From: Alphaproteobacteria bacterium
Lineage (GTDB): Bacteria; Pseudomonadota; Alphaproteobacteria; Micavibrionales; Micavibrionaceae
NCBI GenBank assembly: GCA_021775955.1
Contig: JAJFGU010000004.1
Location: 186,001-250,000, forward strand
Direction: 5' to 3'
Length of the DNA stretch: 64,000 bases
Every line of letters begins with the position of its first letter. The stretch's first letter is position 1. Under the pieces are notes generated by a model. That model worked only from the letters and a program-made list of their open reading frames with translations, was not told the origin of the DNA and made no database searches. Made by a program: the position numbers and the translations under genes. Below are positions 41,955-42,078 of the stretch, in pieces.

Positions 41955-42078
41955 GACTCCATTACGCGAATCCGAAATAAGCGCTTGACACGGACTCGTC
42001 AATGACTCATGATTCGCGCTTCTCAAACGAAGAAAGCCACGTAATGTCGAGTCAAAAGAGTCAGATATCCACCGATTC
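41955..42078. promoter_or_regulatory. Cluster of eight GANTC sites around the ccrM start
   Basis: GANTC occurs at 41955, 41968, 41993, 42004, 42011, 42049, 42058 and 42074 (first base of each). Three lie in the promoter spacer or -10 region and two in the first codons of ccrM. Equal base composition predicts about 0.5 site in this length. CcrM methylates exactly this sequence, so autoregulation is likely (inference). Confidence 0.85.
41985..42013 (+). promoter_or_regulatory. Putative ccrM promoter
   Basis: Exact TTGACA (41985-41990), 17-nt spacer, CATGAT (42008-42013, four of six). The last two bases of CATGAT start a GANTC site, and another overlaps its first base. The predicted start point near 42020 rules out the longer frame from 42002. 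Confidence 0.6.

Follow-up and report, generated by a model that had tools for sequence, protein, structure and literature searches.

What does a DNA methyltransferase gene do with a crowd of its own enzyme's target sites spread over its promoter and first codons, and is such a crowd kept by selection or left there by chance? The ccrM locus of genome G000 raises both questions, and we analyzed it in a window of 64,000 nt (the whole stretch of DNA under study, whose numbering is used for the coordinates below).

Layout of the ccrM locus

Eight GANTC sites lie within positions 41955-42078 of the window (starting at 41955, 41968, 41993, 42004, 42011, 42049, 42058 and 42074), or ten when the outer sites at 41924 and 42125 are counted with them. 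The eight positions given by the first-pass annotation were all confirmed, as was its placement of three sites (41993, 42004 and 42011) in the spacer and -10 of a TTGACA-N17-CATGAT promoter and of three more in codons 2-12 of ccrM:

41924..41928, outer GANTC site at the end of rnhB (RNase HII gene), present in G002 and G003, absent from G001
41955..41959, upstream GANTC site, forming a 13-bp pair with 41968..41972
41968..41972, upstream GANTC site, partner of 41955..41959
41985..41990, + strand, -35 element TTGACA of the ccrM promoter
41993..41997, core site 1 (GACTC), in the spacer at about -27 to -23
42004..42008, core site 2 (GACTC), at about -16 to -12, 11 bp from site 1 and at the edge of the -10
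42008..42013, + strand, -10 element CATGAT of the ccrM promoter, N17 from TTGACA
42011..42015, core site 3 (GATTC), on the -10 at about -9 to -5, target A at -8 on the non-template strand
42044..43144, + strand, ccrM, encoding a 366-aa GANTC adenine methyltransferase (CcrM) with N6_N4_Mtase and RAMA domains
42049..42053, start-codon site inside ATGTCGAGTCAAAA, ccrM codons 2-4
42058..42062, GANTC site in ccrM codons 5-7
42074..42078, GANTC site in ccrM codons 11-12, kept in 4/4 genus members examined
42125..42129, outer GANTC site within ccrM, kept in 4/4 genus members examined

The promoter positions (-27 and so on) are predicted from the register of the -35 and -10 elements rather than from a mapped transcript start. 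Promoter and target sites are physically interlocked, the first C of CATGAT being the last base of the site at 42004 and its GAT the first bases of the site at 42011. The gene likely starts at 42044, since the upstream ATG at 42002 falls inside the promoter.

The predicted CcrM scores above the cut-off for Pfam PF01555 and PF18755 (the methylase domain and a C-terminal RAMA domain), and its residues 11-363 align with the solved CcrM structure 6pbd (E 1.4e-152). The NCBIfam CcrM equivalog model was still the best family match, although at 608.8 bits against a cut-off of 830; its name, DnaMtaseCcrMCaul, suggests a model tuned to Caulobacter. Methylation of GANTC is reported from a metagenome on Micavibrionaceae contigs in nature (PMC9296519), which gives family-level support for the specificity predicted here.

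As a separate observation, two other genes of the window, pepN (40076-40150) and rnhB (41535-41612), each carry an apparent in-frame insertion with inverted-repeat ends (CTTTCCCCGCG...CGCGGGGAAAG and TCATCTCGAC...GGGATGA, respectively), which we take to resemble rickettsial palindromic elements. Within the window the rnhB insertion motif has no second copy.

Rarity of the cluster in its own genome

Broadly, GANTC is depleted in this genome. The window holds 109 sites vs. 243 +/- 15 in dinucleotide shuffles, and a 603-kb sample of the genome (31 stretches with the window included, or 26% of the genome, to which the cluster counts below apply) holds 1146, or 1.90 per kb vs. 3.74 per kb expected under a first-order Markov model. 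Such scarcity is described for CcrM-bearing genomes, with relative enrichment between genes and with other causes possible according to the authors (PMC3973325). At the sampled rate the whole genome would carry ~4400 sites, and the Poisson probability that a given site has seven others within 119 bp is ~5e-9.

Only one other place in the 603 kb reaches five or more GANTC per 124 bp (G000:C3 ~77108-77507, maximum 10), and this denser array rules out the ccrM cluster as the only or the densest one of the genome. The ccrM cluster is real and rare, though not the densest. The first-pass annotation had named similar density in many unrelated regions as the observation that would tell against it, and across the 26% counted there is that single denser array.

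The second array is of interest in its own right. At this locus (L276:17108-18060, or G000:C3 ~77108-78060) it precedes a conserved stretch of ~530 nt, apparently noncoding and with a few covarying pairs, that is flanked by a giant adhesin-like gene on one side and a CheY-like gene on the other and ends in a hairpin and a T run. A GACTCGACTC doublet is conserved in eight aligned members, and a covariance model built from these matches the stretch in 20/58 genomes, those eight included; 12 of the 20 have at least four GANTC per 124 bp upstream or around. In G000, 19 GANTC fall in the 800 bp before the model match, with up to 10 per 124 bp. Against Rfam, the stretch beside the array gave no match at the gathering threshold and two chance-looking ones (E 2.3 and 3.7), and as a candidate replication origin the array coincides with no clear switch in the sampled skew of C3.

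Conservation across the order and the class

To place the cluster among relatives, we compared ccrM upstream regions at two depths. The order search covered 58 genomes (G000 included), of which 57 gave a CcrM match (all except G045); leaving out the fragments in G041 and G052 gave 55 regions, and dropping G018, G022 and G057 (<150 bp upstream) and adding G193, moved over from the class search, gave 53. The class search covered 190 genomes, 133 with a CcrM match (G000 included), from which 29 returned loci and 60 chosen by hand down the list made a set of 89, or 88 after G193 was moved, that leaves out 43 matched genomes. The closest CcrM among named genomes, at 95%, is that of Micavibrio sp. 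DHS20C02 (a MAG), which places the window in the Micavibrio group; we take the family and order to be Micavibrionaceae and Micavibrionales.

Overall, 48/53 order members have at least four GANTC per 124 bp upstream of ccrM and 44/53 at least five, vs. 0/821 control stretches from order ccrM loci with at least four; among the 16 pentamers of GANTC-type symmetry, the next best reaches 10/53 regions. A cluster unconserved in close relatives, which had been proposed as grounds for rejection, is clearly not what these counts show. The five order members without a dense cluster have 1 (G029), 1 (G048), 2 (G051), 3 (G054) and 3 (G040) sites, and beyond the order at least four sites per 124 bp occur in 38/88 class regions and fewer in 50/88, so ccrM does not depend on density as such. 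Among 80 named loci (mostly Rhodobacteraceae), 68 peak at just 2 or 3 sites per 124 bp. We also considered a shift of CcrM specificity in a subgroup of relatives and rejected it, as no group of correctly oriented loci combined a missing cluster with a high GANTC background.

A conserved frame within the cluster

Aligned on TTGAC, the promoters of the order share the frame TTGAC-N3-GANTC-N5-T-GANTC-AT-GATTC. The promoter pattern was written after viewing the upstream alignments, and the 80 named loci were not used in writing it, although four of them (L105, L106, L110 and L111) appear to be the order genomes G003, G002, G013 and G008. TTGAC-N3/4-GANTC occurs in 46/53 order regions and 32/88 class regions. 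A core of two sites in the promoter was found in 39/53 order regions, 23/88 class regions and 65/80 named loci (mostly Rhodobacteraceae), vs. 0/880 order and 0/280 class control stretches (0/1160 together, scanned on one strand). The third site of the frame appears in 33/53 order regions, 1/88 class regions and 6/80 named loci, so that this site, which overlies the -10, is almost exclusive to the order.

Across the 58 genomes the three-site core has 33 exact matches, whereas the reversed pattern has 0. Of these 33, 28 are at ccrM, which gives 28/58 genomes, G000 included. In the whole of G000 the three-site core has a single exact match, at ccrM, and in the 603-kb sample the two-site promoter was found only at ccrM. 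Allowing one mismatch gave four matches in G000 vs. three for a control pattern, so no wider set of three-site-core promoters is evident there.

The frame counts are conditional on the search pattern, so only unforced positions are evidential. Among promoters matching TTGAC-N3-GANTC-N6-GANT, the -10 hexamer is CAnnnT in 36/36 order and 15/15 class members, where the first C is forced and the A at -11 and the T at -7 are invariant in both sets. In the 28 order members with the full core, the T and A flanking site 2 are invariant and site 3 reads GATTC in every case. Variation is seen at the central N of sites 1 and 2 and at most spacer positions, which would be expected were the methylation target alone kept. 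Spacings are also retained: 11 bp separates sites in 39 and 7 bp in 35 of the 53 order regions, and a 13-bp pair occurs somewhere in 22/53.

The coding part of the cluster points the same way. Among the 23 order members with an in-frame ATG-Ser-Ser ccrM start, 21 use TCG-AGT, which creates GAGTC, whereas, of the 151 Ser codons counted in seven reading frames of the window, TCG accounts for 15% and AGT for 11%. In the congener G001, Ser is replaced by Ile at the site of codons 5-7, yet the site is retained (GAGTC to GATTC). The preference for TCG-AGT and the survival of the site through a residue change together point to selection on DNA and not on protein alone. Conservation across the order, absence from controls and this codon-level constraint support the view that the cluster is under selection.

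The cluster is uneven in make-up: a fixed promoter core of two to three sites is most strongly conserved, and the outer sites differ between genera in number and place. The first-pass annotation had suggested that so dense a cluster is a methylation-state sensor or a hemimethylation-timed switch, and this finds support in that the cluster is selected and overlays a sigma70-type promoter. With a two-site core spread across the class and a third site nearly restricted to the order, the dense array appears to have been built up on an ancient ccrM promoter.

GcrA as candidate reader, and the place of CtrA

GcrA is encoded in 56/58 genomes, G000 included (G000:C6:186765-187187, PF07750 at 139 bits). 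The G000 protein matches the 173-residue GcrA chain of 7ye1 and 7ye2 (E 5e-33 for 7ye1 chain G), two structures that we take to be RNA polymerase complexes. A GcrA-sigma70-type layout is present, with GANTC at about -27 and -16 between the -35 and the -10 and with GcrA encoded in the genome. The extended GcrA motif is given as YGAKTCK (PMC7987155), which site 3 of G000 (TGATTCG) fits; among the 28 full cores the fit is 26/28 for site 3, 11/28 for site 1 and 0/28 for site 2. GcrA, named early on as one possible reader of the sites, is thus upheld by its presence and by site 3, whereas the poor fit of sites 1 and 2 counts against it.

A ctrA gene is present in G000 (416 bits), and a CtrA box (TTAA-N6/7-TTAA) was found upstream of ccrM in 2/53 order members (G020 and G037) and is absent there in G000. 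Within 400 bp upstream, gcrA of G000 has two GANTC and ctrA one, and at least four GANTC per 124 bp precede gcrA in 8 of 30 loci of relatives (L070-L099, from the 56 genomes with a gcrA match). A dense array is hence not a general feature of CcrM/GcrA circuit genes. Among these relatives the highest maxima at gcrA (7 in G026, 6 in G005, 5 in G024 and 5 in G025) recall the gcrA promoter of A. tumefaciens.

Position relative to the putative replication terminus

The window also contains a putative replication terminus:

16921..16948, + strand, dif-like site, putative replication terminus, with the ATAATGTATATTATG core at 16928-16942

Within the window, cumulative GC skew reaches its maximum at 15334; along the contig, the skew is positive before and negative after the dif-like region. 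The 15-mer core occurs in 25/58 genomes (the reversed-pattern control gave 0 in all). In two genomes assembled as single contigs, the skew changes around the dif-like site. In G024 (site at 1.2395 Mb) it is +0.012 in a stretch at 1.21 Mb and -0.041 in one at 1.25 Mb; in G026 (site at 1.542 Mb) it is +0.102 at 1.50, +0.009 at 1.55 and -0.051 at 1.80 Mb.

Wherever both lie on one contig (9/9 genomes, relatives rather than independent cases), ccrM is 19-93 kb from the dif-like site: 25.1 kb in G000, 24.7 in G001, 23.3 in G003, 42.8 in G008, 18.8 in G012, 25.2 in G015, 51.8 in G024, 30.1 in G026 and 92.9 in G050. The shared-contig requirement favours short distances, so that most weight falls on G024 and G026 and on G003 and G015 with their long contigs; 16 of the 25 genomes with a dif-like site have ccrM on another contig, and in G043 the distance is at least ~85 kb. 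On the + strand beyond the putative terminus, ccrM would run head-on to the fork, judging from the skew.

The earlier suggestion of a hemimethylation-timed switch is strengthened by this putatively terminus-proximal ccrM and limited in reach by the fact that such a position is not shared throughout the class: a published survey locates ccrM midway in Caulobacterales and Rhizobiales and near the origin in Rhodobacterales (PMC8116508). Because Rhodobacteraceae keep the two-site core with an origin-proximal ccrM, terminus timing cannot be the core's sole role.

A proposed methylation-reading promoter and its alternatives

The explanation that we favor, at a probability of about 0.72, is an autoregulatory ccrM promoter that reads methylation by means of GcrA; methylation of the cluster sites, binding of GcrA, timing and sign are all things that we infer. 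The promoter would be of sigma70 type, with CcrM targets on the spacer, the -10 edge and the -10 and further sites upstream and in the first codons, and the most likely reader would be GcrA, as a sigma70 partner that reads methylated GANTC. A promoter that needs help from GcrA would fit the weak -10, which has no T at -12. Adjacent to the putative terminus, it would remain fully methylated, with low activity, until the fork reaches it at the very end of replication, after which both ccrM copies would be hemimethylated, the promoter active and CcrM made. CcrM would then remethylate the chromosome, and the promoter would shut off once all of its sites were refilled.

Taken alone, the sign of this response (full methylation meaning off) is close to a coin toss, with indirect support. 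Caulobacter ccrM is taken to be active from hemimethylated DNA in a model (PMC2217572) and a review (PMC10073500), and the GANTC-rich gcrA promoter of A. tumefaciens is reported as repressed by CcrM methylation, even in E. coli (PMC11514494). Counting against it, Rhodobacteraceae keep the core at an origin-proximal gene, and GcrA is chiefly described as an activator that recruits RNA polymerase to methylated promoters (PMC3667746, PMC7403470), from which a positive loop would follow.

Such a loop is a possibility to be taken seriously, though we hold it rather unlikely. It would share the methylation-reading GcrA promoter with the explanation preferred above and differ in sign: GcrA-sigma70 would need methylated GANTC (fully or hemimethylated) at -27, -16 and -8, CcrM would activate its own gene, and the array would give bistability, with the off step left to turnover of GcrA or CcrM. 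Besides the recruitment just cited, the fit of site 3 to the GcrA motif speaks for it, as does a prediction that places ccrM among the core targets of GcrA in many of the 13 alphaproteobacteria considered (PMC7987155). Yet a terminus-located methylase that activated itself would be expressed through most of the cycle, whereas in Caulobacter a late window is described (PMC2217572), and the A. tumefaciens gcrA promoter, as a GANTC-rich promoter of known sign, responds in the opposite direction.

It seems quite improbable that the sites serve mainly as docking points for some other protein (a repressor role of CcrM itself, or a MucR-like occupancy protein by which they are kept unmethylated) with methylation secondary. 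The density and the common 11-bp spacing might be read in this way, and some GANTC sites of Caulobacter are reported to stay unmethylated, with MucR1/2 bound at some (PMC7987155); the variable central N of sites 1 and 2 and the variable spacer reveal no larger operator, however, and the frame follows the -35 and -10 elements. That the sites are functionless by-products of promoter sequence, codon use or chance is scarcely credible: the one denser array elsewhere does indicate that clusters can arise and the outer sites do vary between genera, but the empty controls, the TCG-AGT starts, the G001 site kept through a residue change and the spacing kept across the order all stand against it.

Returning to the methylation-reading promoter with full methylation as its off state, it is tempting to speculate that it could act as a counter of methylation completeness at the chromosome end, with many sites all to be refilled before shut-off, an extension that we offer tentatively and think unlikely as it stands. 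A methylase gene next to the terminus would be hemimethylated last, and CcrM is said to leave DNA after each site (PMC10073500). If the sites formed an n-site AND gate, simple arithmetic would place the half-off point at a genome methylation fraction of 0.5^(1/n), or ~0.92 for n = 8. Should this hold, CcrM synthesis would stop only near complete remethylation, and site number and gene position would together make a timer for the completion of replication and remethylation, with CtrA having no direct action on ccrM.

Relation to known systems and significance

CcrM, GcrA, methylation-sensitive promoters and a predicted control of ccrM by GcrA are already known. The last comes from conserved extended GANTC motifs upstream of ccrM among 13 alphaproteobacteria, and as described the motif scoring ignores position in the promoter (PMC7987155); the frame presented here agrees with that prediction and sharpens it. 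At Caulobacter GcrA-sigma70 promoters (ctrA P1, mipZ and podJ) GANTC likewise lies between the -35 and the -10, with GcrA present and an extended motif comparable to site 3 (PMC3667746, PMC4287350), and sites at -24 to -29 are given for podJ P2 and ctrA P1 (PMC4287350). In contrast to these, the ccrM promoter here arranges two to three sites in an unvarying frame, with one of them on the -10, and its methylation dependence is predicted.

The ccrM promoter of Caulobacter crescentus is described as CtrA-activated with two GANTC (PMC10073500, PMC2217572); it shares promoter methylation sites and, as proposed here, an activation tied to hemimethylated DNA, whereas the G000 promoter has 8-10 sites and no CtrA box (although CtrA is encoded) and its gene is terminus-proximal. 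In A. tumefaciens, the gcrA promoter has 6 GANTC in 250 bp, a lower density than at ccrM here, and is likewise a CcrM/GcrA circuit promoter with over-represented GANTC and a proposed hemimethylation-timed activation (PMC11514494). The difference is that this array controls gcrA, whereas the one described here is at ccrM, with a conserved spacer and -10 frame and one site in the first codons. The fixed frame, the site on the -10, the start-codon site kept at the DNA level, the density and the position near the putative terminus were not found in the open-access literature searched.

The timing of CcrM is central to the alphaproteobacterial cell cycle and is credited to CtrA in Caulobacter. In most of the order and part of the class, the ccrM promoter retains CcrM sites in a fixed frame and for the most part has no CtrA box. 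The frame directs attention to four positions (-27, -16, -8 and codons 2-4) and to the question of whether CcrM regulates itself through its own mark. A second question is whether distance from the terminus sets the timing, for which the orders that have the core but an origin-proximal ccrM provide a comparative control.
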